From: a bacterium
GTDB taxonomy: Bacteria; Vulcanimicrobiota; JABDET01
Length of the DNA: 57,045 nt
Direction of reading: 5' to 3'
Assembly (NCBI GenBank): GCA_021800275.1
Contig: JAJYZB010000014.1
Span: 1 to 57,045 of the forward strand
The first letter of the stretch is position 1. The number at the start of each line of letters is the position of its first letter. Under the pieces are notes generated by a model. It saw nothing but the letters and a program-made list of their open reading frames with translations. It ran no database searches and was not told the origin of the DNA. This document shows, one piece after another, positions 24,770 to 45,964 of the stretch. The position numbers and the translations under genes were made by a program.

Positions 24770-24809
24770 CTAAAACAATCCAAGCAACTTGTTTTCGGGA
24801 GGGAAAGCA

Positions 24810-27720: not shown

Positions 27721-27801
27721 ACGCGAAAAATTTTATGGGTGGTTTTTTGTCATCCTGGAGTAAGAAATCAGGACGCAGCCCATGAAATAGCTATTTTTTG
27801 A
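27721..27801 (+). pseudogene. Possible gene-start remnant with ACG in place of ATG
   Basis: AGAGGAG is followed about 7 bases later by ACG and an open stretch of 26 codons (TRKILWVVFCHPGVRNQDA..) that reads like the beginning of a normal protein before a TGA. It runs into the 3' end of the convergent gene. It could be the decayed start of a lost gene; evidence is thin. Confidence 0.25.
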
Positions 27802-30048
27802 GCTTTTTTTGAAGGTAAAGGTTGTGTGGATCCAGTTTCAGAGCTTTCTCCCATAATCTGTGAGCTTCTTTTCTATTTTTCTGCGCAGAGTAAATATCAC
27901 CAGCGATAACAAGAATTGAATCATCGGGTTGATGGAATTTTAAGGCTGTTTTTATATCACGCAGAGCTTTTTGGTACTTTTTTAATTTAAATTCTGACAG
28001 AGAAAGCCATTTCTCTGCTTTAAAGTTTAAATCAGGAGAATAGAGGGCTATTTTAAAATGGTTTTCTGCTTTTTCCCAGTTTCTTTGATACAGTTCCAAA
28101 AGTCCTGCATAATAATGGATTTGAGGAGAGGAGGGAGTAATTTTTAAAGCTGATTTTATTTCTTTTGCAGCCTTCAATATTTTGTTTTCTTTAATATCTA
28201 ATTTTGCCAATCCCAGATGTGCCATAGCATCAGTCGCAGCAAAATTAGCATACCTGAAAAAGGGGAGCCGTTTAATTTCCTGTATGGGATAAATAGAAAG
28301 GATCTCGTGATATTTTTTTCTGGCATTTTTAAATCGTTTTTCTCTAGCTTCAAGATCGGCGAGCCATAAGTAATGTTCAGGATAATTAAGGGGATCCAGT
28401 TTTAGAGCTTTTTTTAACAGAGCAATTGCCTTATTTGTCCCGTTCGGAAGCCTCACTATAATTTCTGACATTTCTCCTAGGTAAAGAGGTTTATCAGGGT
28501 CCATTTGAATAGCTTTTTTTAAATTTTTTTCTGCTTTGAGGATCCATGTTTTTTTACCTGTTTTTTCATATAGTCTTGTTTCGATAAGACTTTTCTGTTC
28601 CAGGTAATGACTGTCTAATGGAAATAATTTGACAGATTGTTTTTCCAGATTTAAAGCGGTTTTCAGTTTTCCCTGGCTTTGCAACTTTCCTGCTTGATGA
28701 TTGAGTTGTTCTGCGTACAGCGCTGTGCTTTGAAATAAAAGCAGAATGACCAGGATTAATCCTAAAAAATATTTTCCGTATTGGTTCATAATAAATCTGG
28801 AGATTGGGTCTGCGCTGTCTCTTCCGGCTGCTAGAAGGAGTCCTCCTTCTGCCCAGAAAAGCACGCTCCAGGATAAGAAATTAGAATCCACGTCAATGAA
28901 AAGATGGATTGCGCCGGCAAGAAATCCACAAAATAGCCCAAGAATGAGGAAGTAATCCTCAGACTCTCTTTTTAGGCGTTTGTATCCGTGGAGTAAAACG
29001 GCTGAGATCAAGGCGGCAAATAGAAAAAAATTGATGAGTCCTTCATCAGACAGCACCTGGATATAAAAATTATGGGGGAATCTGGAATACCAGAAAAAAT
29101 ATTTTTGGTACTCGGGGAATAAGCGTCCAAAAGTATTGGGGCCGCTTCCCAGGACAGGATGGCTCAGAAAGATTTTTAATCCTCCTATCCAGAAAGAAAG
29201 TCTTGCTCCAATGGCAGTGAGCCAACTGCGAGGATTTGCCGCTTTTTTATAAATATCCATGAAAGTGAACTTGTGTTTGAATAGAGAGAGATAAACAAGA
29301 GCAGAAGATAAACAGAGGAGTAGAGCGCTGAGACTGTATTTTGCCAGCAGTGGTTTTTTTTTGCGAGCAAAATAGATCCATAAAAGAAAAACTGCGATGA
29401 AGATTAAAAACGCGCCTCTGGATGAGGTGAATAAGAGAGCTGCAAGCATAAAAAATGTGGTTGCAAAATAGAGGATTTGCCGCAGTCTATCCTCAGATGA
29501 GAAAGCAAAACTCCCTGAAATTGGGATTAATAAAATGAGGTAACCAGCGAAAACGTCGCTCTCATAAAAGGTAGAAGTCATGAAAGGAAATTGTTTTCCC
29601 GCGAACATCCAGAATAGGAACCCCACTGCTGTCACACCTAATCCTCCAATTAAAAAAAGCAGGGGAACGTGTTTCAGGCTCCATTCTTTTTTGTCAAGAT
29701 TAGCGCATAAAAATAGGGTAAAAATCCAGGTAGCAATTTGTAGAAAAAAAAGAAAGCTGGCTCCAACTGCTGCTGAATTGAGGCAGCTTAAAAATGAAAA
29801 AATAAGAATGCTTATTCCAATGGATAGGGTAAAAGGAGATAGTTTTAGCGATGGAAGAAAGGCAAGAGATAAAAAAAAACTCCGAAACTAAAAATGGCTT
29901 CTAAAAATTGAGGCTGCGAATTGATTGAAAGGGCGTGGTCCAACGCTAAAATTGAAGGGATAACTCCGAGTGAAAAAAGCCACCATAAGATAAGTAGAAA
30001 AGTGAATATGCCTATAAAAAAGTTATCTTTTTTTTTGAGTTCACCCAT
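27791..30048 (-). pseudogene. O-antigen ligase/Wzy-like membrane protein with C-terminal TPRs, frameshifted
   Basis: Two frames form one gene. ATG 30048 opens 67 residues of membrane protein that stop just after a T9 run (A9 on the + strand at 29871-29879). With one extra T the frame continues (FFLSLAFLPSLKLSPF..) into the long frame ending at 27791, giving about 752 residues. The restored protein has many membrane segments (about 1-420) including the ligase-type HNFYIQVLSDEGL, then TPR repeats (about 450-752; KKALKLDPLNYPEHYLWLA). It would polymerise or ligate surface glycans or glycosylate proteins. Either phase variation, a real mutation, or a homopolymer sequencing error. It overlaps the upstream gene by 8 bp. 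Confidence 0.8.
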
Positions 30049-31153
30049 GGGTCTGCGTTTTGTTCAAGTTTTTTAAAGCTTCAATAAATTTTGGACAGGA
30101 TTTATCGATTGCAAACAAAAGGGTTCCTAAAACGCTTGGAGTATCTGCATAAATTCCGAAGAACAATTTAGGTATAAGGGATTGAATAATAAGCAGTCCC
30201 TGCTGAAACTCAATAATCCAGGATTTTAGAGACTCAGAGTAGGATAGCAAGGAAGAAAGATTTTCAGTTAGAACAGGAATCGTGCTGCTGATTTCCTCTT
30301 TTGAATCTGCGATGATTGTGACAATCTCGTTGTTCAAGTAAAAAATCGCGAGTCCTTTGACGCCTTTTGAGTTTTTTAACTGTTCTGCCATCGGTTCAAA
30401 GAGTTCTCGAATCGTCTGCGCATTGAGTGCCTGAAGAGAAGGCAGGGGTTCTTCAGAAAGTATTTCCTGAGGAGGAGTTTCTTTAAGAATTTTTTCTGGA
30501 ACTATGCTTGTTTCGCTTTCCGCAGCTTCTGATTTCACGAGCTGCATTTCAGGAGCTGATTCGAATTTAATTTTTTCTAATTCTTGGGCAGACTTTAAAA
30601 GATCTTCGACAATCTTCAGCCTTTGGTTAGCCATGTTTTTTGAGTACTCCAGGATAGTATTCATGGGGGATAATTCCAAAAGAGAAGAGAATTCTTCCAG
30701 ATCTTTTTGGAGTTTTTCTTTTTCGATTTCCAGTTGCTGCAGATAAACAGCCAGATTCTCGGGTTTTAAAGGAGAATTAATGGCTGTTTTAAAGAAAGGA
30801 GCCAGTTGTTCAGGTGGGGAGGACTCATGAATTAAAATGTTGTAAATGGCGCGGCTTTCAATATTCCCTTTGTCTAACTCAAGAGCGCGAGCTAACTCGG
30901 AATAAGCTTCATCAAACATTTTTTGTGTGCCGTAAATTTTTGCTAGCGAGGCATGGACCTCAATCGCATCCGGTTTTATTTCAGACAGTTTCTGAAAAAC
31001 CTGGAGAGCCATCAGTTTTTTTCCTCTTCTTAGAGCGGTTTCTCCTAATGCCATTAAAGTTGATGGGTCCTGTGGATTTTCTTTCAGGATCTGCTCTAAT
31101 TTTTCGATCTGGGTGTCCAGGGAAATTTTATAATCTTCAGTGCTATTCAGCAT
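30041..31153 (-). CDS. TPR protein with C-terminal roadblock/LC7-like domain
   Basis: A 370-residue cytosolic protein. Residues 15-115 are TPR repeats (PQDPSTLMALGETALRRGKK, KPDAIEVHASLAKIYG); a coiled or helical linker follows; residues about 245-365 form an alpha/beta domain (RELFEPMAEQLKNSKGVKG, LAIFYLNNEIVTIIAD) of the roadblock/LC7 type that regulates small GTPases such as MglA. No GTPase is in the window. It overlaps the kinase gene upstream by 11 bp and the O-antigen-ligase-like gene downstream by 8 bp, so it is embedded in the operon. Confidence 0.75.
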   Translation of the reverse strand: MLNSTEDYKISLDTQIEKLEQILKENPQDPSTLMALGETALRRGKKLMALQVFQKLSEIKPDAIEVHASLAKIYGTQKMFDEAYSELARALELDKGNIESRAIYNILIHESSPPEQLAPFFKTAINSPLKPENLAVYLQQLEIEKEKLQKDLEEFSSLLELSPMNTILEYSKNMANQRLKIVEDLLKSAQELEKIKFESAPEMQLVKSEAAESETSIVPEKILKETPPQEILSEEPLPSLQALNAQTIRELFEPMAEQLKNSKGVKGLAIFYLNNEIVTIIADSKEEISSTIPVLTENLSSLLSYSESLKSWIIEFQQGLLIIQSLIPKLFFGIYADTPSVLGTLLFAIDKSCPKFIEALKNLNKTQTHG

Positions 31154-32396
31154 CTTGCTCCTTATTTACGTGATGAGAGTCTTTCTGGTGTCTCGAGAAA
31201 ACGGGGAGGAAAAACGCAAAAAGACTCCCTCTGCCTTCCTGGCTTTTAACTTTAATGGAGCCGCCATGAGCTTCTATAATATATTTTACATTCGCCAATC
31301 CTATACCTGTTCCCTCAATTCCTTGAGTTAATTCAGAATTCACTCTATAAAATTTTTCAAATAATTTTGCAAGTTTTCCTGGAGGGATGCCTATTCCTTC
31401 GTCTTCTATGTCAATTTCCACAAAATCTCCCATTGTGCTGATTCTAATTTCGATTTTTCCTCCTTCAGGAGAGTATTTGATCGCATTTGAAAGGAGATTA
31501 TAAATGACTTGTATGATGAGATCCTGGTCTGCCCATACATCAGGTATTGACTCAGGCGGCTGGAAATGGATTTTATGGATTTGACTTTTCTTGGAGAGGA
31601 TTGGAAGGGCTTCATGAATTAACTGAACGAGATTAACGGGAACTCGATTTAATTTAAATTCTCCCGCCTCCAGTTTAGCCAGATCCAGGAGATTATTGAT
31701 AATCCTAACAAGTCTTTCTGTCTCTTCTCGCACAATCTGCAGATAGCCGTGGATTTTCTCCAGCGGAGGATTTCTGGTTAATATAATTTCCACAAATCCT
31801 TGAATGCTGGTGATAGGAGTTTTTAAATCATGGGTTACCATGGAAACAAACTGGCTCTTCATTTCTGTCGCTTTGCGAACTTCTGCATAGAGCCGCGCGT
31901 GCTCAATGGCGATAGAGACCTGATCTCCAATAGTGGTTAAGAATTTCAGATCGGTTTCTGTAAAATGAGAAGAGCGGCTTGGATTTCGCAGCATTAAAAC
32001 TCCAATGACTTTGTTATTCGTTTTTAGCGGCACACATAATGAGGATTGTATTTCTTCTTTTCGAGGGATGAGTCTCTTGAATTTAGAGTCAGCCACTTTC
32101 CCGTCTAAAAGGAGTGGCTCTCCTTTTAGCGCTACCCAGCCAGCAATTCCCTCTCCTAAAAGGACTTTTGTACTGGAGATAACCTCCTGGCTCAAACCCT
32201 GGGAGACTTCAATGGTTAAATATTTTTCTTTTTGCAATAGCATAATTGATCCGGCATCCGCTTTAAAAAGTTTGGTCGTCATGTCCATGATGAATTGCAG
32301 CACAGTTTTCAAATCCAAAGAAGAATTAACTACCCTACTGATTTCGTACAGGTGGTAGATTTCTTCTTGATTATGGGTATTAGGACTGCTAACCAT
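31143..32396 (-). CDS. GAF-domain sensor histidine kinase
   Basis: A 417-residue (ATG at 32396; TTG at 32402 possible) soluble kinase. A GAF domain (about 15-170; LLGEGIAGWVALKGEP, SLCVPLKTNNKVIGVL) binds an unknown signal. The HisKA helix holds the phospho-acceptor His in VTHDLKTPITSIQGF, followed by the ATPase motifs QVIYNLLSNAIKYSPEGG (N), DEGIGIPPG (G1) and GTGIGLANV (G2). No membrane segment, so it senses an intracellular cue. Two response regulators lie directly upstream in the same operon and are its likely partners. Confidence 0.95.
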   Translation of the reverse strand: MVSSPNTHNQEEIYHLYEISRVVNSSLDLKTVLQFIMDMTTKLFKADAGSIMLLQKEKYLTIEVSQGLSQEVISSTKVLLGEGIAGWVALKGEPLLLDGKVADSKFKRLIPRKEEIQSSLCVPLKTNNKVIGVLMLRNPSRSSHFTETDLKFLTTIGDQVSIAIEHARLYAEVRKATEMKSQFVSMVTHDLKTPITSIQGFVEIILTRNPPLEKIHGYLQIVREETERLVRIINNLLDLAKLEAGEFKLNRVPVNLVQLIHEALPILSKKSQIHKIHFQPPESIPDVWADQDLIIQVIYNLLSNAIKYSPEGGKIEIRISTMGDFVEIDIEDEGIGIPPGKLAKLFEKFYRVNSELTQGIEGTGIGLANVKYIIEAHGGSIKVKSQEGRGSLFAFFLPVFSRHQKDSHHVNKEQDAE

Positions 32397-32408
32397 CAAC
32401 AATTTTCT

Positions 32409-32864
32409 TTATTTGTTCTCTGCTACTCGGTGAATTTCCGCCAGAAGCCTCAGTGGACTGAATGGCTTTGTTAAGAATAATTCAGCTCCTGATTCAAGAC
32501 AGGCTTTTCTCATTCCTTCGCCGCGCCCAGTAATAAGAATCACAGGGATATGGGAAGTGGCGGCATTTTCTTTAATGGCTCTGCAAACTTCAGTTCCATT
32601 TTTTTGGGGAACAATCACATCGAGAAGAATGAGATCCGGCTTTGTTTCGAGAGCCAGTTGGTATGCTTCTTGTCCATCTCGCGCCTCTATTACTTCATAT
32701 CCTTCAGGTTCTAAATTGAGCCTTAGCAGTTTTACCATATGGGGCTCATCATCTGCAATTAGAATTTTTTTTCTATTTTTTCCTTTTTGGAGAGCAGTGT
32801 CTGCCTGCTTCTTGCGCGGGAAATTTAATATTTCTCCCCTGTTTTGTCTGCTAGGCGTCTTCAT
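32409..32864 (-). CDS. Response regulator, single receiver domain
   Basis: A 151-residue protein, starting at the ATG (32862-32864) that overlaps the stop of the upstream regulator (ATGA). After a ~30-residue basic linker the receiver domain has ILIADDEPHM (acidic pocket), the phospho-Asp in LILLDVIVPQKNG and the Lys in LTKPFSP. No output domain, so it acts by protein contact or as a phosphate shuttle, CheY-like. Next gene is the histidine kinase. Confidence 0.92.
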   Translation of the reverse strand: MKTPSRQNRGEILNFPRKKQADTALQKGKNRKKILIADDEPHMVKLLRLNLEPEGYEVIEARDGQEAYQLALETKPDLILLDVIVPQKNGTEVCRAIKENAATSHIPVILITGRGEGMRKACLESGAELFLTKPFSPLRLLAEIHRVAENK

Positions 32865-33241
32865 CGTTCTGCGTATTCTCTCAGAATACTCAACAGTTTC
32901 ACAGGGCTGAAAGGTTTTGCGATAAAGATGTCTGCTTTGCACATCATTTTTTTCCCATTTTCAAGAGATTGATTTTGGCCCGACAAGATTAAAACAGGTA
33001 TTTTTTTAGTTTTTTCATCGGTTTTTAGAGTTGAACAGACTTCATACCCGTCCATTTCTGGCATTTGAACGTCGAGAAGAATTAAATCAGGTTGAATTTG
33101 ATTGGCTATCTTTATTCCTTCACTTCCATTTTTTGCCTGAAAAATTTCGAAAGGTTCATTTTCGAGGCTTACTTTTATGAGCTCCGCAATATGCGACTCG
33201 TCATCAATCACGAGCAGTTTTCTCTTTTTCCCAGGGTTCAA
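32861..33241 (-). CDS. Response regulator, single receiver domain
   Basis: A 126-residue stand-alone receiver: LLVIDDESHI (acidic pocket), LILLDVQMPEMDG (phospho-Asp) and IAKPFSP (conserved Lys). No output domain. It overlaps the roadblock gene upstream and the second regulator downstream by 4 bp each. Having two single-domain receivers next to one GAF kinase suggests a branched or competing phosphotransfer, as in chemotaxis- or pilus-type systems; that is inference. Confidence 0.93.
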   Translation of the reverse strand: MNPGKKRKLLVIDDESHIAELIKVSLENEPFEIFQAKNGSEGIKIANQIQPDLILLDVQMPEMDGYEVCSTLKTDEKTKKIPVLILSGQNQSLENGKKMMCKADIFIAKPFSPVKLLSILREYAER

Positions 33242-33594
33242 GTCTTGAACTCCTCAAGGAGCTTTCTGCTTCTCTTAATTTCGTAACGAATTCTGCCTAG
33301 ATTCATTCCGCTTTGTCCTATTAAAATTAAGTATCGTTCTTGGGAAAATTTGTCTAAAGTTATGAAAATATCCTGGAATTCGATATACTGCTGTCCTGAC
33401 TCTCCCTTACCATAAAGCGGAGAAACTTTCATGGAGGATTCCATGGTTTTTAAAGCAAAGGGGATAAATTCGTTTTTGCTGACTGCGGCAGAAGAGACAG
33501 ACTCAAGAATTTCTCCTTTTTTGGAGATCAGCAGAGCGCATTGAATTCCATCCAGTTTCCCAATTCCTTCTAAAGCAGAAGCATAATCACCCAT
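33238..33594 (-). CDS. Roadblock/LC7 (MglB-like) protein
   Basis: A 118-residue protein with the roadblock fold: an N-terminal helix (DYASALEGIGKLDGI), then QCALLISKKGEILESV, a central helix and FIPFALKTMESSM, then YIEFQDIFITLDKFSQERYLILIGQ. Such proteins dimerise and often act as GTPase-activating partners of MglA-type GTPases in polarity and motility. A helical C-terminal extension (RRIRYEIKRSRKLLEE-like) is present. It overlaps the DUF4388-like gene by 8 bp and the first response regulator by 4 bp. Confidence 0.82.
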   Translation of the reverse strand: MGDYASALEGIGKLDGIQCALLISKKGEILESVSSAAVSKNEFIPFALKTMESSMKVSPLYGKGESGQQYIEFQDIFITLDKFSQERYLILIGQSGMNLGRIRYEIKRSRKLLEEFKT

Positions 33595-34480
33595 TTTCAG
33601 GACTCACTAGAATATAGGCGTCTTTTGCCGCTTTTATTTTTTTTTGTATCGTGGCAGACATCACAATTTTACCGCCAATCCCTTTTTTGCCGCTGACTTT
33701 ATAAATTTCAGGAGTTTCGCTTCCAACGTAAAGCGCCAGCTTCTGAATAGGGCGTGTTTTAGACCATTCTTTTAGTAGAGTTTCATCTACCTTCACTGTA
33801 TTTCCTCCTCCTAAAAAGCCGCCCGATTCCACAGAAATCATCAGTTCTCGATATTGAGCAAAAGTTTCTTCTTTCAGCTGCTTCTTCTTTTCAATTTCAT
33901 CAGGTTTTTCCCCGAAAACGTTTACAACTCCTCCCTGTACTGACAGCGATTCAATTAATTCATTTACTTTTTCGGGCCCAGTGATAATCTGGCCGTAAGC
34001 ATCAAGAAAATTATCGGTTATAATCCTTCCTTGATTTAAGAGAAGAAAAACGGCATCTTCCGAAGAGCTTCCAACGATCTCAATCATGCCTGTTATTCTT
34101 TCTCCATCAAGATTTCCAAGAAGCTTTCGAAATTCTCTTTTTCTAATGGGACTGTTTAAGTATTTTTCTTGGAACGCATGAGATCCAGATAAAACAGAGG
34201 CGGTTTCAGGAGCTAAAACGTAAGAGGCTACTATCGGAGTCTCTTTTCTTAAATAATGGTGTAAAAGAAGTTCAGCCGCCAAAGAGATGTTTTTTCCTGA
34301 AATCTCCACAACGCTGCTGGTAATTCCTTCTCTCATAAAAACGAAACTTGTTCTCTCATTCACTGTTATTTTGATGTATCCATTAAATCCGTGGTTTTGC
34401 AAGTTTGTGAGTTTTAATTTCACATCTTCTCCTGACAATGAGGTTGGTTTTAGAAGGACGTTTCCTCGCGGAATATTCAT
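33587..34480 (-). CDS. DUF4388/PATAN-like two-module protein
   Basis: A 297-residue soluble protein with two similar alpha/beta modules (about 5-100 and 110-195). Each has a GxIxI strand pair followed by FLxxGxI (GYIKITVNERTSFVFMREG; GMIEIVGSSSEDAVFLLL). This matches DUF4388/PATAN-type modules often found with response regulators and roadblock proteins. A helical linker and a C-terminal beta-domain (about 225-297) follow. It is coupled to both neighbours by overlaps. Family call is by pattern only. Confidence 0.6.
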   Translation of the reverse strand: MNIPRGNVLLKPTSLSGEDVKLKLTNLQNHGFNGYIKITVNERTSFVFMREGITSSVVEISGKNISLAAELLLHHYLRKETPIVASYVLAPETASVLSGSHAFQEKYLNSPIRKREFRKLLGNLDGERITGMIEIVGSSSEDAVFLLLNQGRIITDNFLDAYGQIITGPEKVNELIESLSVQGGVVNVFGEKPDEIEKKKQLKEETFAQYRELMISVESGGFLGGGNTVKVDETLLKEWSKTRPIQKLALYVGSETPEIYKVSGKKGIGGKIVMSATIQKKIKAAKDAYILVSPENG

Positions 34481-35004
34481 GTTTTGTCCTCAGGTTTCAA
34501 GTCTAACTCTAGAGGAATTTCTTTTGATTTTGCAGGCTCCTTAGACTGCTGCTGCATCAATGATTTCCAGGGATCTCCAATTTCTGCTGGACCAGTTTGA
34601 GTATTTTGGGGATCTGCAGTATTTTGAGTTTGGTTCTGCTGCTGCGCGGCAGGAGTGTTAGAAACTGAACCTGCATCCACGCTGATGTCATTTGGAAGCC
34701 CAAAAGAGGGTTGGTTTATTAACTTAAATACTGACTCACCTGGTGAGTTGTCTGCCGCAGGAGCCGCGGTTTGAACAGCAGGATCCATGGGTCGGATTCC
34801 TTGCTCTTGAACGTTCGAGCTCTCTTTTGCTGGTTCTGCTAGATTTTTGAATGGATCCTGTTCTTGTCCTTTGGGAGAGATGATAAGCGTTTGAGAAGAA
34901 GGGTTTTTTTTCTGAGAGAGGCGGCTGATGATTTCCCAGAAAAGCGTGAGGCTGAAAAGCAGAGCAAAAAAAATGCCGAGGTGATCGAAAAAAAGCGGGT
35001 TCAA
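34477..35004 (-). CDS. Single-pass membrane protein with disordered tail
   Basis: A 175-residue protein with one membrane segment near the N-terminus (about 8-27; HLGIFFALLFSLTLFWEII) and a long Gln/Pro/Ser-rich, probably disordered cytoplasmic tail ending in acidic LELDLKPEDKT. No enzymatic motif. It overlaps the 654-residue TPR gene by 4 bp upstream and the DUF4388-like gene by 4 bp downstream. It could anchor the soluble TPR/roadblock components to the membrane; that role is inferred from layout. Confidence 0.65.
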   Translation of the reverse strand: MNPLFFDHLGIFFALLFSLTLFWEIISRLSQKKNPSSQTLIISPKGQEQDPFKNLAEPAKESSNVQEQGIRPMDPAVQTAAPAADNSPGESVFKLINQPSFGLPNDISVDAGSVSNTPAAQQQNQTQNTADPQNTQTGPAEIGDPWKSLMQQQSKEPAKSKEIPLELDLKPEDKT

Positions 35005-36965
35005 ACTTTTTTCCCTCCTCCTGAAAGATCGGTTGGGAAGGAAACCACTTTTCCTGATGAGCCTGGATTTGCCAGATTTTTTAACCTTGTAGATATATCT
35101 TTATATCCGATATCCACAACCAGAATTTCGCTGTAGAGATCATGAGCCTCTTTGAACATTTTGACGTCTTCATAAGTTCTAGCGAGGTTGTACTGTATTT
35201 CCAGCAGCTCCTCTTCAGAATATTCGCTGTGTTCAAGTATTTTTCGAAATTGGCGAATCGCCAGATCATGGAAGCCTTGGCGATTAAAACATAATCCGAG
35301 TTGAGTGCTGCTCTGCAGAAAATAGCTCTTATTTTTGGATGCTTTTTGAAATTCAAGAATCGCTTCTTCCATAAAATCAAGGTCCTTATAAAGAAGGCCA
35401 AGGGCTAAAGCTGTTTCGCTCTCTCCTTTTGTGACCATTAACGCTTTTTTGTATTCTTCAATAATTTCAGCTATCACTCCTTTTGCGACAAGACGTCGGG
35501 CTAAAGCAGCCATTTCGTTTAACATTCCCTTTTTGGCGTAAGTCATTGCCATTCCTATCACTGCCTGTCGATAATAAGGGTCTTGTTCAAGGGCTTTCTG
35601 GAAGTTTTCTAGAGCTTTATTCCAATCTCCGATTGTATAGTAAATATTTCCTATTCTTGACAATAAAGAGGGGTCATTTGACTTTTTAAGCGAAAGAGTT
35701 TTGAAGATTTCTTCAGCCCGTTGAATCTCTCCGGCGCCCGCGTAGAGTTCAGCAGATTTCATGTAGGATTCAAAAGCCAGTATTGGATTTTCTTCTTTTA
35801 TATAGAGTTCTGCGAGGGAAAGGTGAATTTTTGGAGATTGGCTTCCTTTTTCGATGATTTGTTTGTAGATTTTAATGGCTTCCTGGAGCTTATAAAGTGA
35901 AACATAAATTTCAGCCAGGCGAATCATGGCTATTTCGCCAAACTGCTTGCTGCCTTTTGATTCGGCTGCAGCAGCTATTTTTTGAAGCGCATCATCCAGT
36001 TTTAAAATTTGTTCTCTTTGGAGCATCTGTTTGATGAACTCTTCCATGCTCGCTTTTCCTTTTTCAGGATGGTTTGCCCATGCGGCAAGTATTAATTTTT
36101 GATAACCCGATATTATTTTTTCTAGATTGTTTTGAGAGAGATAGTAGTCGAGAGTTTGCTGCCAGAGAGATAAATAGCGCTCGAAATGGTTTGCTTTCAG
36201 CTCTTCTTCAGCAATCTGCTCTAAAAGGACTACGGCTTTGTCCTTTTGATTTTCGGCAAAAAGAGTTTTGGCAAGATGTTCTTTTTCAAGAGAGACTTGG
36301 TTGAAAAGTTGATTTTTCTGCAGAAGTTTAAACCATTCTTCAGCCGCTGTGAGCGCATCCTCTATGTTTGTTTTTAGAAAGGCGCTGATTTGGTCGCGAA
36401 TGACACTGACCGCCTCCTGGAGTTTTTTTTGATTGATTAAGGCTTGTGCCAGGGTAAAGCTTATTTTTTTATTTTCAGGTTCGAGGACAAGAATTTTATA
36501 GTAACATTCTAATCTGTCAGGATTTAAGGAGACAGCTTGTGAAAAAGCATTCAGGGCTTGCCGCGAAAAGTTCCTGCTTAAGTAATATTCCCCGATAGAG
36601 TAATATAAGTCGCTGGATTTTTCTTTTTCTTGAATTTTTGCTGCTAAGTTTGCCATTTTAATTTTTATGGCAAGGTTATCAGGATAAAGTTTCAGGACAG
36701 GTTCTAATAAGTTGAAACTGTCTTGAGCTTTCCCCTCTCGTGAAGCCATAAAAGAGAGGAATAGACTTTCTGATTTGAAGTTTTCTTCCAATTTAAGCTG
36801 CGGGTAAATTTGCAGCAAATGGGTTCTTGCCAGGTGTTCCCCAGGGTTGACGAGCAAAATCTTCTCCAGGAGGGACTTAGCTTCCTCCAGATTGCTGGCT
36901 TGAACCAGGCCGTCAGCCAGTGATGTGGCTGAATTCTTCCATTTCTCGTAAGAGTTCAGTTTCAT
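35001..36965 (-). CDS. Large TPR-repeat scaffold protein (654 aa)
   Basis: Composed almost entirely of TPR-type helical hairpins (for example FSRQALNAFSQAVSLNPDR, GDWNKALENFQKALEQDP), with no signal peptide, so a cytosolic scaffold. The C-terminal repeat and tail (EELLEIQYNLARTYEDV.., then YKDISTRLKNL and SGKVVSFP) match the end of the 1172-residue TPR protein encoded upstream, marking them as paralogues. It starts 53 bp inside the previous TPR gene and overlaps the membrane-protein gene by 4 bp. Confidence 0.88.
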   Translation of the reverse strand: MKLNSYEKWKNSATSLADGLVQASNLEEAKSLLEKILLVNPGEHLARTHLLQIYPQLKLEENFKSESLFLSFMASREGKAQDSFNLLEPVLKLYPDNLAIKIKMANLAAKIQEKEKSSDLYYSIGEYYLSRNFSRQALNAFSQAVSLNPDRLECYYKILVLEPENKKISFTLAQALINQKKLQEAVSVIRDQISAFLKTNIEDALTAAEEWFKLLQKNQLFNQVSLEKEHLAKTLFAENQKDKAVVLLEQIAEEELKANHFERYLSLWQQTLDYYLSQNNLEKIISGYQKLILAAWANHPEKGKASMEEFIKQMLQREQILKLDDALQKIAAAAESKGSKQFGEIAMIRLAEIYVSLYKLQEAIKIYKQIIEKGSQSPKIHLSLAELYIKEENPILAFESYMKSAELYAGAGEIQRAEEIFKTLSLKKSNDPSLLSRIGNIYYTIGDWNKALENFQKALEQDPYYRQAVIGMAMTYAKKGMLNEMAALARRLVAKGVIAEIIEEYKKALMVTKGESETALALGLLYKDLDFMEEAILEFQKASKNKSYFLQSSTQLGLCFNRQGFHDLAIRQFRKILEHSEYSEEELLEIQYNLARTYEDVKMFKEAHDLYSEILVVDIGYKDISTRLKNLANPGSSGKVVSFPTDLSGGGKKV

Positions 36966-38442
36966 AAACTTTAGTCATCAAAATTTGCGCTTCTGACCGC
37001 TTAGGATCGGTTTCCAAGAGCTTTTCTAAAAATTCAGCGGCAGGGCCAATTTGTCCTTGTTCAAACAATGCTTTTGCTTGCCGCCACAAATCTTCAGAAT
37101 TTAGTGTTTTAGTTTCAGTTTTAGTTTCAGCTTTGGCTTTTGTCTCTATTTTTTCTTCTTCTTTTATTTCGGTTTTCGTTTCTGAGGCTGGTTTCTTTTC
37201 TTGAATAGGAACATTAACAGGGACAGGGGATTCTATTTTTCTAATTTTTTTGACAGATTTTTCTTCAATCTTAGGAGGTGCAGCCGGCTCTTCTAATGGT
37301 TTGCCTGTTTTTGCGTAAAAATTGTTCAAGAGTTCTTTTGCTTTTGAATTGGATGGATCCATGTCCAAAATTTTTTGATAATGAGTGGCAGCTTCTTCTT
37401 CAAGTCCTACTTCTGTATAGCTTGAGGCTAGTTGAAACAGTTGTTCAATCGCCTCCTTTTTGCTGTCAATTTTTATGAGGTTTTGGATCAGTTGGAGTCG
37501 AGCGCGCAAATTTCCTGGATCAACATTCAGCGCCATCTGATAAATGTTAATGAGGTGGTTGATGGTCTCAACATTGTCAGGCTCCCATTCTGCGAGCTTT
37601 TCATAGAGAAGGATAACTTTGTCATATAATCCTGCCTGGGAATAACTTTCAGCCAGTAATTTGTAAGTTTGAATGGCGCTGGCAGTGTCTCCTATTTTAA
37701 AATAACTTTCAGCTAGTTTATTTAAAATCTCTTTGTTGGAAGGTTCAGTCTCCAGGATTCGCTCCATTGCCTGAATTCCCATCTGATGGTTATCTTGTTT
37801 TAAATATTCGTTAACAGCGTCTTTCAGCCAGATTATCATTTGAGTTGTGTTTCCCTGGCTGGCATAGATTTCAGCCAGTTTCTCATAAGCTAGAGCAGAC
37901 TCTGGTCCTTGAAATCTGACGACTTCTTGGAATGGTCCCTTGGCTTTATCGAATTGACCTTTAGCCAGATAGGAAAGTCCTTGGAGAGTATAGGTTTTTG
38001 TATTACTGGAAGATTCAGAAGCTTTTTCGAGATATTCTATGGCATGGTCATAATCTTTTTTTTCGAAATAAATCTCTCCAATTGCTTCGTACAGCCGAGG
38101 CGTATATTTTGCCGAATGTTCTTTCAGGCGAGAAGAATGGGAGCTCCTTCGATCCAGGAAAGATCTTTTGCCGTGATGTCCTTCTAGAGAAAGAGCATCC
38201 AAAAGCGTTTTTGCTGCCTCATCCAGGTTTCCTTGTGAATGCAGAAAGTTTGCCCAATTTAGGTATTCTTCAAACACGGTTGGAAAATCTTCTTTTTTAA
38301 GCGCTAGATTAATGATCTGCTTGTGAGCTTCCGGCCGTGCAGGATCCAGTTCACGCGCCTGGGTGTATTCTGCAAAAGCTTCTTCAACTTTCCCCTGGTT
38401 TGCTAAGCTATCTCCTTGTTTGAGGAGTTGTTCATAATTCAT
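36913..38442 (-). CDS. TPR-repeat scaffold protein (509 aa)
   Basis: TPR repeats fill about residues 1-375 (KVEEAFAEYTQARELDPAR, KKDYDHAIEYLEKASES, EEAATHYQKILDMDPSN). A Lys/Glu/Thr-rich linker (about 385-455) and a last TPR pair follow. No signal peptide. It overlaps the 1172-residue TPR gene upstream by 4 bp and the 654-residue TPR gene downstream by 53 bp, so the three TPR genes are tightly coupled. It lacks the YKD/GKV tail shared by the other two. Confidence 0.88.
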   Translation of the reverse strand: MNYEQLLKQGDSLANQGKVEEAFAEYTQARELDPARPEAHKQIINLALKKEDFPTVFEEYLNWANFLHSQGNLDEAAKTLLDALSLEGHHGKRSFLDRRSSHSSRLKEHSAKYTPRLYEAIGEIYFEKKDYDHAIEYLEKASESSSNTKTYTLQGLSYLAKGQFDKAKGPFQEVVRFQGPESALAYEKLAEIYASQGNTTQMIIWLKDAVNEYLKQDNHQMGIQAMERILETEPSNKEILNKLAESYFKIGDTASAIQTYKLLAESYSQAGLYDKVILLYEKLAEWEPDNVETINHLINIYQMALNVDPGNLRARLQLIQNLIKIDSKKEAIEQLFQLASSYTEVGLEEEAATHYQKILDMDPSNSKAKELLNNFYAKTGKPLEEPAAPPKIEEKSVKKIRKIESPVPVNVPIQEKKPASETKTEIKEEEKIETKAKAETKTETKTLNSEDLWRQAKALFEQGQIGPAAEFLEKLLETDPKRSEAQILMTKVYETELLREMEEFSHITG

Positions 38443-41400
38443 GATATGGATTCCTGACGGCGGGAAGAAGGAAGTCTAGTGACTTTCCCTGATTTAATTT
38501 CTTCTTCCAGCTGCTTCTTTCGTTCTCGAGCATCTTTATAATCCATGTCAACCGTTAAAATTTCTTGGTAGTAAGGCAGAGCTTCCTGTATTTTTCCCAA
38601 TTTCTCATAAAGGTTTCCAAGCGCGTATTTGAGTTCTAAATATTCCTCGTCTTTGTACCCATGTAATTCCAGCCCCTTTTTATACACCTTTAAAGCATTT
38701 TGATAAAGGACATCATCTTTGTCCAGCAGCGCTTTTTCTTCCCAGCAGGCCCCCTGATATAAGTATCCTTTTAAAGTCAGCTCAGGAGATTTTTTGACGA
38801 TAATTTGAAATTCCCGAATGGCTTTGTCAAATTCTCTTGTTTTCAACAAAAATAAGCCAACGCCCAGCCGCAGATTTTGATTGTCCTGGTCTTTTTCTAG
38901 TTTAGATTCGGTTTCCTTTAAAAATTCGCCTATTAGACTTTGATTATCGGAATTTAATTTTATCAATTCATGAATGTACTCCATCGCGATTTCAAATTTT
39001 TCTAGAGAAACGTAACCTTTTGCCAGGCGAGATAAAGCGGCTGTATGATGGGGATCAAAACTTCTCACTTTTTTAAATTCAGAGAGGGCTGCTTCTAGAT
39101 TGTTTTTATGGTCAGACAGAATAACTCCTAATTGATAGCGGGCATCTTTATTCGTTCCATCCAGTGACAAGACATGCCGGTAAGCTTCAATCGCTTGGTC
39201 AAAAAGCGCTTGACTGGAGGATAAGTGCCCTATAGTCATAAATTCCTGGACGGCTTCCTGGTTTTGATTGTTTTGAATATAAAGACGGGCTAGGCTTTCA
39301 TGAAGAGCAAGGGAATCTGGAGCAAGAGAGATTAATTTTTTGTTTAGTTCGATCCTTTTTTTGACTTCTTTCATTTTTTCGTATAAACTTTCCAGACGCT
39401 TTCCTGCTGCCAGGGCTTCTTCTGTATTTTTCTGCTGGATGTAAACTTCTATTAATCTCGTCAGAGCTTCTGGATCGTCCTGAGTGCTGTCAAGAATTTT
39501 TTTGTAAGAACTTAAAGCCCCTTGCAAATCGCCTTTTTCTTGCGCAATGTCGCCTAGCTTCAGCTCAAGCTTTACAGCTGCTTCTTGTTTACCTAGCCCT
39601 GAATAAACATCTTTCAGGCGATGAATGATCCCAATATCATGGGAGTCCAATTCAAGCGCTCTTTCTAAAGCTTCTGCTTCTTTGTCATTCTCTCTACTGG
39701 AGCCATAATGAGTAGAAAGAATCAAAAATTCTTGTTTGGCTTCAGAGAGTCTTCCCATTTCTTGATAACAGAGGGCTAATTTGTGGCGTATAGGGAAAGC
39801 CTCGGGATTGGATTCAATCATTTGCTGATAGGCTTGAATTAGATCAGAGATAGAATTCGAAGACTCCAGAGAGGAGACCATAAGTTTAAAATGGTAGAGT
39901 GAAAACAAAGAAAGTCCGCTTTCTTTTAAAGCAGGGATCAGAACTTGACGGGCGGGATGATATTCCGGATTCCATGCCAGAATTTGAAGAAGAGCTGCTA
40001 TCCCATTATTCATCTCTCCTGATGAGATTTGAATTTTTGCCATTTGAGTAAAGGCTTCAGCCCATTGGTCTCCATCTTCTCTTAGAAGGAAGATTTCTCC
40101 CATTTTCTTGAAAACAGAGTAGTCTCTGCTGTTTTTTGACGCCTCTTTAAAGAGTAGAAGAGCTTCATCTAAAAGGCCATTTTGGAAATAAATTTCTCCG
40201 AGAGCAATTTTTAAATTTTCATTTTCCGGATTTTCTCTTAAAGCATCTTTGCATAATTGAATAGCTGGAATAATTTTGTTTTGCTTTAGCAACTGCTGAA
40301 TGTCTGAACTCAGGTTTTCAGGTAAAGATGCAATAGCAGAAGAAGGTTTAGGTTGAATTAGTGATGGCTGCTCTGATTTAACAGATGAGGAGATAGTCGG
40401 GATTTCTAGAGTTCTTTTTTGCAGGGGGAGGGGTTCTTTCTGAGCAATGGATTCTTTTTGTGGGGAGCTGACGGACTCCGTATGATCCGTATAAACAGAT
40501 TCTTTCACTGCAGGCTGCTGAATTTGGTCCGGTGTTTCTATGGGTGGTTCAGCCACAGCGGACTGCTCCACATAAACAACTTTTGGAGTTTCTAATGGAG
40601 AAACGGATTCTGTTTCATTTTGAGCTTTCGTCACTTCTAGAGGGGTTTGCTCTTCTGGGTTGAGTTCCTGAGCAGCAGGGGCAAAAGGCTCCTCTTTAGT
40701 ACGAGTGAGAATGGGTTTGAACCCTGGTTTTGTTCTTGGGATTCCTGATTCAAGCGGCGCGGGCGCAGAAGATTTCACTTTTGAGAAAGGAGCTGGCTTT
40801 TCTTTTCCTGGTGGATATTTCGATTTAAGGTCGGTTTTTAATATTAAAGGAGAATTAGCGGTTTCTTCTGCATCTTCTTTTTTCTCTTCTATCTCAGAAT
40901 AGACAGGTTTCTGCGCGGCTCTTAAATTTAGATTTGTCTCTATACTCCTTTTTTTAGGAACAACAGGGGCATTTAGAGTTTGAAGTTTTTTTTGGGCAGT
41001 TGTATGGTCAGGATCAAGAGCCAGGATGTTCTGGTATAACTCGACAGCTTTTGTGGAGTTCCCTTCTTTCTCATAAAGTTCGGCAGCTGCCAGATAATGT
41101 TTAATGGCATCCACTTGATTGCCCAGAACTTCACTGATTTCAGCGTAACTCTCCCTCCCAGAAGGATTGTCTGGAGCCAATTCAGCTATTTTTCTGAACG
41201 GCAGCTTCGCGTCTTCCCAGGCTCCCAATGTTTTATAGATCATTCCGAGCTGTGAGAGGGCTCCAATATGATTTAAATCAGAGCGGAGAATTTGCCTGAA
41301 TTCAAGTTTTGCCTCCTCGAGTTTTCCCATTTCAATGTAAACCGTTCCTAAGGAGGATAGATTCTCGATATCGTCTGGTTTAATCACTTTTATTCTTTTT

Positions 41401-41957
41401 AGAGCATCCAGGCAGAGAGGGTAATTTTCCTGCTTCAGCATTTCCTTTGCGACAACCTTATAAAGAGCAAGACCATCCCCAATTTGTCCTTGTTTTATAT
41501 AGATTTCTCCCAGTTGAAACAATAAATCAGGATTGTCAGGATCGTCTTCTCTTTGTTTTTGAAGAAGTTCAAGAGCTTTTTCTCCATGTCCAACAGCAGA
41601 AAATATTTTAGCGAGGTTGAGAGACTGCGTAATGGCTGCTTGCTTGTTCCCTTTTTTTTCCAGAAGTTCAATCAGTTTAAGCCTGGCTTGAGAACTCGTT
41701 GGTTCAATGCTGATAACCCAGTTGCAAACTTCTAAAGCGCCATCTAACTGCTCTTTGTTTTCCAGCACCTCTCCCAGTTTTAAAAATTGTTGGATAACTT
41801 GAGGAACAAGTCCTCGAATAGCATATAGATTTGCCGCCGAATAATAGGCATGTTCTTCCTCGGGGTTTTCTTCAATGATTTTTTGAAGCAGCTCTAAAGC
41901 TTCTTCAAAAGCCCCTGCTTTTTCAGCTTTTTCAGCTTGTTTATAGAGCGAATCCAT
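38439..41957 (-). CDS. Very large TPR-repeat scaffold protein (1172 aa)
   Basis: First gene of the operon. TPR block one covers about residues 1-330 (KAGAFEEALELLQKIIEENP), a Pro/Glu/Ser-rich disordered linker about 335-555, and TPR block two about 560-1150. The tail YKDARERKKQLEEEIKSGKV is shared with the 654-residue paralogue. No signal peptide or enzyme motif. A strong promoter (41985-42013) precedes it. Likely a multi-partner cytosolic scaffold for the signalling proteins encoded downstream. Confidence 0.9.
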   Translation of the reverse strand: MDSLYKQAEKAEKAGAFEEALELLQKIIEENPEEEHAYYSAANLYAIRGLVPQVIQQFLKLGEVLENKEQLDGALEVCNWVISIEPTSSQARLKLIELLEKKGNKQAAITQSLNLAKIFSAVGHGEKALELLQKQREDDPDNPDLLFQLGEIYIKQGQIGDGLALYKVVAKEMLKQENYPLCLDALKRIKVIKPDDIENLSSLGTVYIEMGKLEEAKLEFRQILRSDLNHIGALSQLGMIYKTLGAWEDAKLPFRKIAELAPDNPSGRESYAEISEVLGNQVDAIKHYLAAAELYEKEGNSTKAVELYQNILALDPDHTTAQKKLQTLNAPVVPKKRSIETNLNLRAAQKPVYSEIEEKKEDAEETANSPLILKTDLKSKYPPGKEKPAPFSKVKSSAPAPLESGIPRTKPGFKPILTRTKEEPFAPAAQELNPEEQTPLEVTKAQNETESVSPLETPKVVYVEQSAVAEPPIETPDQIQQPAVKESVYTDHTESVSSPQKESIAQKEPLPLQKRTLEIPTISSSVKSEQPSLIQPKPSSAIASLPENLSSDIQQLLKQNKIIPAIQLCKDALRENPENENLKIALGEIYFQNGLLDEALLLFKEASKNSRDYSVFKKMGEIFLLREDGDQWAEAFTQMAKIQISSGEMNNGIAALLQILAWNPEYHPARQVLIPALKESGLSLFSLYHFKLMVSSLESSNSISDLIQAYQQMIESNPEAFPIRHKLALCYQEMGRLSEAKQEFLILSTHYGSSRENDKEAEALERALELDSHDIGIIHRLKDVYSGLGKQEAAVKLELKLGDIAQEKGDLQGALSSYKKILDSTQDDPEALTRLIEVYIQQKNTEEALAAGKRLESLYEKMKEVKKRIELNKKLISLAPDSLALHESLARLYIQNNQNQEAVQEFMTIGHLSSSQALFDQAIEAYRHVLSLDGTNKDARYQLGVILSDHKNNLEAALSEFKKVRSFDPHHTAALSRLAKGYVSLEKFEIAMEYIHELIKLNSDNQSLIGEFLKETESKLEKDQDNQNLRLGVGLFLLKTREFDKAIREFQIIVKKSPELTLKGYLYQGACWEEKALLDKDDVLYQNALKVYKKGLELHGYKDEEYLELKYALGNLYEKLGKIQEALPYYQEILTVDMDYKDARERKKQLEEEIKSGKVTRLPSSRRQESIS

Positions 41958-41984: not shown

Positions 41985-42013
41985 ATTATAGCATAATAAA
42001 TAGAAAAAAGCAA
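41985..42013 (-). promoter_or_regulatory. Sigma70-like promoter of the TPR/signalling operon
   Basis: On the - strand TTGCTT (42008-42013) and TATAAT (41985-41990) are separated by 17 bp, with TGC before the -10 (extended -10). The ATG of the 1172-residue TPR gene lies 27 bases after the -10. The -35 box lies inside one arm of the pilQ terminator hairpin. Confidence 0.75.
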
Positions 42014-42040
42014 AGCCTTTTTAAAGGCTTTGCTTTTTTT
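42004..42040 (-). terminator. Rho-independent terminator after pilQ
   Basis: A 17-bp perfect stem with a TT loop: arm GCAAAGCCTTT pairs with AAAGGCTTTGC, flanked by A and T runs, so it is a terminator in both orientations. It starts 14 bases after the pilQ stop and ends the pilMNOPQ transcript. Confidence 0.9.
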
Positions 42041-42053
42041 CAAGATAATGCGG

Positions 42054-44081
42054 TTAATCTTTTAAAAGAGTTGGCGTTACTGTAATCACCAAGTCCGTTT
42101 TAGTATAATTTTTCACCGTATTTTTAAACAGATTGCCAATAATAGGGATATCGCCTAAAAGAGGAACTTTGGAAATGGCAGTTGATGTTTGCTCATTCAA
42201 CAATCCTCCAATGACAATAGTCTGCCCATTTTGGACACGGACCTCTGTAGTAGCCTGGCGGGTGTCAATTTCAGGATAACCTTGAGCTCCAGCCGGTTGG
42301 GTTCCCAACTCACTGACCACAGGATTGAGTTTAACTGTGATAAATCCATTGGGACTGATGTGAGGCGTGACTTTTAGATCTACGCCGATATTGATATATT
42401 GAACCTGGTAAACTCCTGCCTGGGGTTCATAATATACAATCGGGTATTTTTCACCCAGAAGAATTTCTGCAGCTTTATCATTTAAGACTGCGACTCTGGG
42501 AGCGCCTAACACTTTGGCGACACTGTGCGTAATCAAGAAATTAAGGGAAGCCTGGAATCCAAGATTTCCTCTGACAAAAGAGTAGAAACCAAGACTATTC
42601 GTGGAAACAGTGTTTCCATTTTGACTTGGCGTTGGCAGAGCTCCGGTCGCAGAAGGCACATTTTCATCAAAATCCTCTTGAAGGGCTCCTGGCCATTGAA
42701 TACCAAGGTCGCTGCTCTTTGTTATATTCACGGCTACAACTTGCATAGCTAGCATAACCTGAGGCTGGGGAACGTCAATGGCGCTGATTAAAGATTGAAT
42801 GGCATTGATGTCATACTGTGATCCGACCACAAGCATTCCATTTAATCTGGGGTCTTCAATGACGGTAACGTTTGGTGGGAAAAGATCCTTCAGTTCAGCG
42901 ATTGTTGTTTTTACGTTCGCATAGTTTAATCGAATCAATGCTTTGTGAAGAGGAGGCGGAGGCGGAGGCGGAACCACAGGTTTGTCCAGTTCTGAAACCA
43001 AAGCCACGACTTTTCGAATGGCAGAGACAGAGCCTTTGACAATTAATGCATTCATTCGACTGTCAATATTGATTTGGACCTCCGGGAACTCGGAGGTGAT
43101 AGTTGGGGCAAGGCTGGCAGCTTTGACATTGATGAGCGGTATGACTTGAACCGCAGTAGGGCCAAAAGACTGCATCAAGGTTGGAATTTTTTCCAATTTT
43201 GCAGGAGCAGCGACAACGAGAATATTTCCGACCTGCCTGTAACCATATCCATTGAGGGCGAGGATCATTCCCAGCGCCTGGGTGGCTGGAACATGTTTTA
43301 AATCCATGGTAACAGTTCCTTTAACTGCTGTGTCAATCATGACATTCAAGTGGAGTTTGGCGGCTAACTGTCTTACGACAGCGGTTAAACTCGCATGGTT
43401 CCAATACATTGAAACATAAGGATCAGTATTGGCCCGATAACCCGCAGGTTCTGCCTGACCCATGTAGTGTCTGGCATAATACTGCTTGGCATAATTTTCT
43501 CTTGCTAGAATAAGCTTTGAGTATTTTGCTTCCATTGAGGGCGAATAAACAGACATCTCATTTGTGGAACCAGGGGATGAAGGTGAAAACATTTTTCTGC
43601 TGGCTTCGACGTTTTTCCATCTAGGGAGAGTTGAGACATGAGTACCCGTCTCCTTAGTGGCGGCTGTGCGAGTCGAAAAAGAGATTGTCAGTAAATGTCT
43701 TGAATCTGAAGGCTGAACTGTGTAAGGGAGTTTATGAATCATGCGGAAAACAACATGAACAACGTCGGGATGCGTGGAAAACTGCGCAATCGTCATATTT
43801 TTAATCTGTCCCATGCTGATGCTCTTGGTTTCTTTTTTGCCCAACAAGACAGCTTGAGGCAGCTCAAAAATAATGGCTTTTTCGGGAGTTTGAATTTGGA
43901 AACTTTTGCATTGGATTGGATGATTTCCGCGTATGAACAGTTTCACCCCCTGACTGGATGATTCTAAGCGAATCATCCTAATTTTTGTGGTTTGTTGATG
44001 AGCAAAAACAAACTTACCCATCAATACTAGAATGAGTAAACCGAGTACAGTTTTTAGGACCGTTTCCTTCTTTTTTACCAT
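42054..44081 (-). CDS. pilQ: Type IV pilus secretin
   Basis: Forms the outer-membrane channel through which type IV pili exit. Start at ATG 44081 (AAGGAGG 11 bases upstream); 675 residues. Signal peptide (about 1-28), AMIN domain (about 30-145) for peptidoglycan binding, STN domain (about 220-295), secretin N domains (about 300-465) and the secretin barrel with VPLLGDIPIIGNLFKN near the end. A PPPPPPP stretch sits between N domains. It is the last gene of pilMNOPQ, followed by a strong terminator. Confidence 0.96.
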   Translation of the reverse strand: MVKKKETVLKTVLGLLILVLMGKFVFAHQQTTKIRMIRLESSSQGVKLFIRGNHPIQCKSFQIQTPEKAIIFELPQAVLLGKKETKSISMGQIKNMTIAQFSTHPDVVHVVFRMIHKLPYTVQPSDSRHLLTISFSTRTAATKETGTHVSTLPRWKNVEASRKMFSPSSPGSTNEMSVYSPSMEAKYSKLILARENYAKQYYARHYMGQAEPAGYRANTDPYVSMYWNHASLTAVVRQLAAKLHLNVMIDTAVKGTVTMDLKHVPATQALGMILALNGYGYRQVGNILVVAAPAKLEKIPTLMQSFGPTAVQVIPLINVKAASLAPTITSEFPEVQINIDSRMNALIVKGSVSAIRKVVALVSELDKPVVPPPPPPPLHKALIRLNYANVKTTIAELKDLFPPNVTVIEDPRLNGMLVVGSQYDINAIQSLISAIDVPQPQVMLAMQVVAVNITKSSDLGIQWPGALQEDFDENVPSATGALPTPSQNGNTVSTNSLGFYSFVRGNLGFQASLNFLITHSVAKVLGAPRVAVLNDKAAEILLGEKYPIVYYEPQAGVYQVQYINIGVDLKVTPHISPNGFITVKLNPVVSELGTQPAGAQGYPEIDTRQATTEVRVQNGQTIVIGGLLNEQTSTAISKVPLLGDIPIIGNLFKNTVKNYTKTDLVITVTPTLLKD

Positions 44082-44141
44082 GTTTCTCTGCACCTCCTTG
44101 AGGAAAAATTAAAATTGAGTTTTACTTTTTTGGTGTACCAA

Positions 44142-44612
44142 TTATTTAAGCTGAGGAAGAGGTAAAAATTTTCTACCCGAACTCCCAATGACCATCACCC
44201 CCTTATCACTGATTGAAAGGACTCTATATTTATCTATGACTTCACCTTCATGTACGACATGACTGCGCGACCCTATTTGGATAATGGCCGATCGTTCTCC
44301 ATCCGTGAGGACACCTGTGACAACAGGTTCCCCTGATGCAACTTCTCCTTGAGTGGAGGAGCTGGATGAGATAACTCCGCTTGAGCTGCTCAATGGGACA
44401 AAAGGATCTTTCTGCGCCCGCATGAGATTTTTAGGAATATAGGGTTTCTGCGCCAGCTCTTTGGGCGTGGGCGGCGGTGGAGGAGGCGTCACTGCAGCGA
44501 TCTGAACTTGTTTCTGGACATGTTGTGTTTGTGGCTGGGAAGCGCAGCCGCTGAGAGCCAGCGAGAAAAGCATTAAGAAAGCAAGATAACTTATAATTGT
44601 ATTTAATTTCAT
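44142..44612 (-). CDS. pilP: Type IV pilus lipoprotein PilP
   Basis: A 156-residue lipoprotein: signal peptide with lipobox LSGC (Cys about residue 23), a Pro-rich spacer (TPPPPPPTPKE), the PYIPKNLMRAQKDPFVPL motif and a beta-domain (about 90-156; VVTGVLTDGERSAIIQIG, RVLSISDKGVMVIG). It links the PilNO inner-membrane complex with PilQ in the periplasm. Its gene lies 3 bp after pilO. Confidence 0.88.
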   Translation of the reverse strand: MKLNTIISYLAFLMLFSLALSGCASQPQTQHVQKQVQIAAVTPPPPPPTPKELAQKPYIPKNLMRAQKDPFVPLSSSSGVISSSSSTQGEVASGEPVVTGVLTDGERSAIIQIGSRSHVVHEGEVIDKYRVLSISDKGVMVIGSSGRKFLPLPQLK

Positions 44613-44614
44613 GG

Positions 44615-45232
44615 CTACCCTCCTAACATGTACATTTCAAATGGCATAGTTACTGTAAGGGTTGGATGGATGCCTGGTTTAGCCCCACTGGGGGACAAGC
44701 TAATTCGCTGAATGGTAACAAGTTTGTTGAGTTTGAAATTTCCAAGCTGCTCTAGAAAATTGACCACGGTATTGAATTTGCCAGTAAAGGTGATAGAAAC
44801 AGAGGATTTTCCAGACACCAGTCCTGGAGCAGGCGCTTTGTTGTTTTTCGCTGTCCTGGGCGCTGTACTTCCAGTGACCATGAATTGTCCAGGAGTTATG
44901 GCAGTGATTTGAAAAGTAGAATCTCCTGTGATGTTCCTTTCATATTTAGCGAGTTTTTCAATTGAGACTAGAAATGAGGGGATGAAATTTTTGATTGTTT
45001 TAGTTTGATGAAGTTTTTGAAGAACATCATTCCATGCTGCGACGTCGGTTCGCCATTTAGCAAGATTTTTAGATTCCTGCACAAGATTGCTGTATTCTTC
45101 CTTTTTGCTGGCAATTTTGTTTTTATTGTTGATGATTGTCTTTTGGATGTTTTTCCAACTCATGATCCAAAATCCCATGACAATGAGTCCTACCAGGACG
45201 ATCGTGATAAAAGCTTTTGTGATCATTCCCAT
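44615..45232 (-). CDS. pilO: Type IV pilus assembly protein PilO
   Basis: A 205-residue inner-membrane protein with one N-terminal membrane segment (about 7-26), a coiled coil (about 30-75) and a ferredoxin-like periplasmic domain (about 95-205; SITFTGKFNTVVNFLEQLGN, LVTIQRISLSP). It dimerises with PilN to align the pilus motor. The start codon overlaps the pilN stop by 1 bp and pilP follows after 2 bp. Confidence 0.88.
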   Translation of the reverse strand: MGMITKAFITIVLVGLIVMGFWIMSWKNIQKTIINNKNKIASKKEEYSNLVQESKNLAKWRTDVAAWNDVLQKLHQTKTIKNFIPSFLVSIEKLAKYERNITGDSTFQITAITPGQFMVTGSTAPRTAKNNKAPAPGLVSGKSSVSITFTGKFNTVVNFLEQLGNFKLNKLVTIQRISLSPSGAKPGIHPTLTVTMPFEMYMLGG

Positions 45233-45945: not shown

Positions 45946-45964
45946 TTTTTACACCCCCTCCATT

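Follow-up and report, generated by a model that had tools for sequence, protein, structure and literature searches.

What does an operon that combines large TPR scaffolds, roadblock proteins, a PATAN-like protein and two-component genes do next to the genes of a pilus alignment complex? The operon lies within a 57,045-bp stretch of DNA (the window) from a genome of the phylum Eremiobacterota/Vulcanimicrobiota, here named G000. What is known about the control of pili through TPR, roadblock and PATAN proteins comes largely from Myxococcus and cyanobacteria, and the operon brings these three protein types together beside the alignment complex in a distant, poorly studied phylum. Based on sequence comparison and analogy with known systems, the operon is proposed to encode a membrane-tethered module for the control or localisation of the type IVa pilus that works without MglA, a reading to which we give a probability of roughly 55%. 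The distribution of the module was searched in 58 genomes of the one phylum, including the sister species G001.

Operon layout and transcription signals

All eleven open reading frames are found on one strand, running from 41957 to 27791 (Table 1), in agreement with what a first, sequence-only reading of the window had described. The same reading had nearly all junctions overlapping by 4 to 53 bp. Most genes do overlap, but RECb and the kinase gene are separated by a 6-bp gap and some of the sizes were revised. From TPR1 downward, the first six overlaps measure 4, 53, 4, 4, 8 and 4 bp, and the kinase gene overlaps the TPR/roadblock gene by 11 bp. RECa and RECb overlap by 82 bp if RECb has its listed start, and by 4 bp (ATGA) if it starts at ATG 32864, which is probably the start that is used. 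The apparent 405-bp gap upstream of the Wzy gene is not real, as the frame from ATG 30048 overlaps the upstream stop by 8 bp; with its start there, the Wzy gene therefore also overlaps its upstream neighbour. At the protein level, Pfam cut-offs were exceeded in the window for TPR, GAF-HisKA-HATPase, the two receivers and Wzy_C.

The location directly downstream of pilMNOPQ was likewise borne out, with pilMNO(P)Q preceding TPR1 on the minus strand. For the operon as a whole, one strong promoter had been proposed. A terminator and an extended -10 element precede TPR1 and both are retained in G001 with altered stem bases, but these are consensus matches, by which transcription is not proven. Because the two elements are kept in G001, they support a transcription unit apart from pilMNOPQ in this genus (G000/G001). 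On the opposite strand, adjoining the end of the operon, positions 24789-27704 encode a fusion protein that combines a nucleotidyltransferase with phosphomannomutase-like domains and DUF5752.

Table 1. Features of the operon and its upstream flank, in the order of the minus strand (window positions)
Feature	Position	Strand	Remarks
pilMNO(P)Q	42054..47071	-	Alignment complex and secretin; conserved neighbour of the operon
Predicted intrinsic terminator	42004..42039	-	Strong, 16-bp, 3' of pilQ; also in G001
Predicted extended -10 promoter element	41985..41993	-	TGCTATAAT; consensus match; also in G001
TPR1 scaffold, 1172 aa	38439..41957	-	TPR block, low-complexity linker (~335-550), TPR block
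TPR2 scaffold, 509 aa	36913..38442	-	In most relatives, the N-terminal half of one protein of 1147-1477 aa
TPR3 scaffold, 654 aa	35001..36965	-	Equals the C-terminal half of the same 1147-1477-aa protein
Putative membrane tether, 175 aa	34477..35004	-	Single N-terminal TM segment (residues 9-27); tail disordered
PATAN/DUF4388-like protein, 297 aa	33587..34480	-	No fused receiver
Roadblock/LC7 protein, 118 aa	33238..33594	-	MglB fold, by family profile and predicted fold
RECa, stand-alone receiver	32861..33241	-	Phosphorylation residues present
RECb, stand-alone receiver	32409..32864	-	Likely start ATG 32864 (listed ORF start 32942)
GAF histidine kinase	31143..32402	-	No TM segment; Pfam GAF-HisKA-HATPase
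TPR protein with C-terminal roadblock domain	30041..31153	-	Roadblock domain assigned by way of relatives
Wzy_C/TPR membrane protein	27791..30048	-	O-antigen-ligase superfamily; starts at 30048 in frame 0, changes to -1 at T9
T9 tract at frame change	29871..29879	-	T TTT TTT in zero frame; same offset in G001 and G002

Proteins of the module

Three giant TPR scaffolds had been read from the window. Three TPR open reading frames are indeed present, but TPR2 and TPR3 form a single protein in most relatives; they are separate genes in G000, G001 and G004. TPR3 starts inside TPR2, and the 53-bp overlap (36913-36965) is nearly identical in G001. An overlap with an internal ATG explains this arrangement more simply than a programmed +1 frameshift would. 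No obvious ribosome-binding site is seen at the start of TPR3. Within TPR1, the N-terminal 310 residues are the most conserved part. In Myxococcus, SgmX is a protein of 1060 aa with TPRs at both ends that is required for polar PilB (PMC7519303). TPR1 differs from it in falling far under the cut-off of the SgmX family (NCBIfam NF052243; 101.8 bits against 1800), so membership of that family was rejected. Generic TPR models outscore the SgmX model for TPR1, which counts against a role in pilus control.

The tether homologues that were read have an N-terminal hydrophobic segment followed by a long, low-complexity tail rich in Pro, Ser and acidic residues. In the window, this tail carries the motif DPWKSLM and a C-terminal IPLEL, and both motifs recur in relatives. 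Of 14 homologues, 12 contain the pattern D-P-W/F-x-x-L-L, with 19 matches against 0.07 expected in shuffled sequences, a count that is descriptive because the motif was picked post hoc from the same sequences. A C-terminal I-x-L-D/E-L/I motif is likewise recurrent. These motifs might dock the TPR proteins.

For the 297-aa protein of the window, DUF2226 is the only match, and 15 of its 21 homologues match DUF4388 with a best E-value of 5.1e-6; its assignment as a PATAN/DUF4388 protein is fair at the level of the family. The predicted structure is of low confidence (pLDDT 57.7). Pfam found no receiver domain in this protein, i.e. there is no PATAN-receiver fusion. The last 60 residues show a pattern (KLG..., EGD.V.VRP) that recalls small beta-barrel domains, and one weak MazE match (0.013) was obtained among the homologues.

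The 118-aa protein on its own gave no Pfam match. Robl_LC7 was matched by 12 of 16 homologues (best 8e-11), a PDB profile search with the family returned MglB (6.9e-9), and the best Foldseek matches of the AlphaFold model (pLDDT 79.8) are MglB structures with TM scores of 0.81 to 0.88. On the family profile and the predicted fold, the protein can be firmly assigned as a roadblock protein of the MglB fold. The domain call that had been proposed earlier holds for the roadblock protein and, at family level, for PATAN, which is not recognised in the window copy itself. A second roadblock locus is present in G000 (C8:201252-202199; L063 5810-8278, with L063 2004-5744 upstream) and encodes a TPR protein of 1246 aa, a 702-aa protein that carries a roadblock domain, and a small roadblock protein of 115 aa; relatives also have this locus. 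Similar roadblock pairs are seen in G001, G010, G017, G026 and G034.

As for the two-component genes, the GAF kinase of the window is without the PAS domain that the G001 copy carries. Elsewhere, G000 has one CheW/CheA locus.

Conservation and linkage to pilus genes

Gene order in relatives had been suggested as a check, and it is kept over many genera at 20-40% identity, as TPR1-TPR2/3-(membrane protein)-PATAN-roadblock-(REC-kinase)-TPR/roadblock-(Wzy). According to tblastn of the window proteins against the loci of relatives, the constant core consists of TPR1-TPR2/3-PATAN-roadblock-TPR/roadblock, and the membrane protein, the receivers, the kinase and the Wzy gene are common but variable members. 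Kinase and receiver were not found by tblastn in the loci of G017 and G024. PATAN is present in 27 of the 58 genomes and TPR2 (E<=1e-15) in 24 of them, mostly the same genomes. In public collections, a single-protein scan found nothing, and a scan with a narrower alignment yielded three named loci, each belonging to this phylum.

The genes pilMNO(P)Q lie directly upstream of TPR1 in G000, G001, G004, G005, G006, G013, G017, G019, G026, G034 and G036, and pilMNOPQ directly before TPR1 is found in eight families (f1, f3, f4, f5, f10, f11, f12 and f13). In at least three genomes (G017, G026 and G034), pilB and pilT are also located upstream, on the same strand and in the same cluster; in G000, less favourably for a link to the motors, they are on another contig. 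Strong PilM matches (E<1e-50) were obtained in most genomes outside family f8, which has neither the module nor an orthologous PilM and whose weak PilM matches are probably FtsA-like relatives. The joint absence in f8 favours a link between module and pilus. Family f14 speaks against it: PilM is present there without the module, which is therefore not required for a type IVa pilus in this phylum. A T2SSE-type ATPase match at G000:C10:92868-93878 contains two in-frame TGA codons and is a possible pseudogene.

Search for MglA

An MglA/MglB polarity module was rejected for the genome of the window, as an MglA-type small GTPase was not detected. In G000, PF00025 and PF08477 matched only in long open reading frames, none of them an MglA-type small GTPase. 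The G034 protein as query did not find MglA in G000, G001 and 51 other genomes, and weak partial matches were seen in 4; a very divergent GTPase could escape this search, made with two Pfam models and a single protein query. G034 has the only MglA-type GTPase found among the 58 genomes and is the sole exception among the bearers of the module. Its gene (L065 228-1172, G034:C186) encodes a C-terminal hydrophobic segment and lies beside a roadblock gene; it may be due to transfer or contamination.

Comparison with known systems

A system of the same composition had been thought to be undescribed, and a literature search agrees, although the parts resemble known pilus control. With the MglA/MglB/SgmX/FrzS/SopA proteins of Myxococcus xanthus (PMC7519303, PMC11580455), the module shares a large cytoplasmic TPR scaffold, a roadblock protein of the MglB fold, and a type IVa pilus output, presumed here from linkage; PATAN and TPR proteins also co-occur with SgmX (PMC11580455). 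Unlike in Myxococcus xanthus, MglA is not detected in the bearers other than G034, and the module genes form one operon beside pilMNOPQ, with a membrane tether carrying recurring motifs in addition. As in the cyanobacterial regulators PixE, PixG and LsiR, of which PixE reportedly binds PilB1 (PMC7690835), the PATAN-like protein has a genomic association with type IV pili and with receivers of the CheY type; in contrast to these, it is separate from the receiver, and large TPR scaffolds and roadblock proteins are added. PATAN proteins co-occur with MglA/MglB genes, and roadblock/PATAN neighbourhoods have been reported earlier (PMC4316618). The Streptomyces conservon CvnA-D (PMC4316618) also encodes a histidine kinase together with a roadblock protein, whereas in the operon no CvnD GTPase or CvnC is recognised, the locus is pilus-linked, and the kinase and receivers are variable.

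Proposed function and alternatives

By analogy with these systems, the module would most likely localise or license the pilus motor. With its tail inside, the TM protein might use its short motifs to dock TPR1 and TPR2/3 next to PilMNO at the inner membrane. PATAN, the roadblock protein and the roadblock domain that ends the TPR/roadblock protein would then serve as adaptors on the TPR scaffold, setting when or where the extension motor PilB (or the retraction motor PilT) engages. In loci that have the GAF kinase, it would phosphorylate the stand-alone receivers, and these could pass on the signal through contacts between proteins. The module would not be driven by an MglA GTPase, in contrast to the Myxococcus system. 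We infer all of these interactions, as well as the topology, the PilB/PilT target and the direction of control. As a pilus-linked module without MglA, it would probably be a new form of pilus-control system. If so, roadblock proteins can act in pilus control without MglA, the defining GTPase of the Myxococcus switch, and the operon offers a defined protein set for interaction tests. The wider proposal, in which pilus control without any MglA-type GTPase by roadblock and PATAN proteins on giant TPR scaffolds with a disordered membrane tether is widespread in the phylum, and the terminal Wzy gene is expressed in one order through conserved transcriptional slippage, is less likely than not.

Control of either pili or surface glycan had been suggested for the operon. 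The link to pili has become stronger with the eight families and with pilB/pilT in the same clusters, while for glycan there is only the Wzy_C gene, outside the constant core. It is unlikely that the module serves surface-glycan export or ligation, or pilin glycosylation, with the Wzy_C/TPR protein as the output enzyme organised by the scaffolds. Wzy_C does end the cluster in many bearers, and its product has a weak similarity to models of the oligosaccharyltransferase TfpM (O-linking) and of O-glycosylation ligases; however, these NCBIfam matches are generic and far under cut-off, and the f7 loci of G008, G011 and G020 keep the core on incomplete contigs in which the Wzy gene was not found. 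A general polarity or membrane scaffold, comparable to MamA or FlcA and merely inherited beside the pil genes, seems quite improbable, since adjacency to pilMNOPQ in eight sequence-divergent families is not expected in the absence of a shared function. This idea would fit the fact that MamA is the best TPR model for TPR1 and that genus g15 of f11 (G016, G032 and G038) has the cluster away from pilM, which also counts against the pilus reading.

A further explanation is compatible with pilus control, and both can hold together: the roadblock proteins may act on an unrecognised NTPase (such as PilB, PilT or PilM) or on a divergent GTPase with its gene at another site, which would make the module an MglA-type switch with its GTPase replaced. 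Roadblock proteins have been linked to the regulation of NTPases (PMC4316618), and the second TPR/roadblock locus of G000 would also agree with this, but neither the two Pfam models nor the one protein query gave a candidate small GTPase, and we consider this variant rather doubtful.

Frame change in the Wzy gene

The Wzy gene begins at ATG 30048 rather than at 29635 and continues in the -1 frame after the T9 tract. The comparison covers three genomes of the order (G000, G001 and G002), in which the tract occupies nt 170-178, counted from the start, with identical phase (counterparts of the tract in the loci of relatives at L021 8124-8132 and L022 10649-10657), after which the -1 frame is open for about 700 codons. 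Deeper relatives have the gene in a single frame. A nine-nucleotide A/T run at a conserved frame change, as required for programmed transcriptional slippage, is present, and the identical position of the frame change in these three genomes suggests conserved slippage. A downstream RNA structure as stimulator of ribosomal frameshifting was rejected, as no conserved structure was found; G001 alone stands out (z -2.6). Nine bases is a known tract length for transcriptional slippage, and two overlapping frames are joined via a T/U run in this way in Shigella mxiE (PMC1088944). For both genes, the longer product would depend on slippage; unlike mxiE, the present gene encodes a Wzy_C/TPR membrane protein and is known here from sequence alone.

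There is a somewhat less than even chance that the tract instead reflects phase-variable DNA, an assembly error or a decaying gene restarting at GTG 29635. Three genomes are a small sample and homopolymers mutate, and other nine-base A/T tracts inside intact genes of the window imply that such tracts are not avoided here. Against this, tract, offset, length and -1 direction are identical in the three genomes at about 40-70% protein identity. In addition, substitutions between G000 and G001 at the first, second and third codon positions number 14, 10 and 25 in frame 0 before the tract and 19, 11 and 38 in the -1 frame after it, a third-position excess that points to protein-level constraint on both parts.
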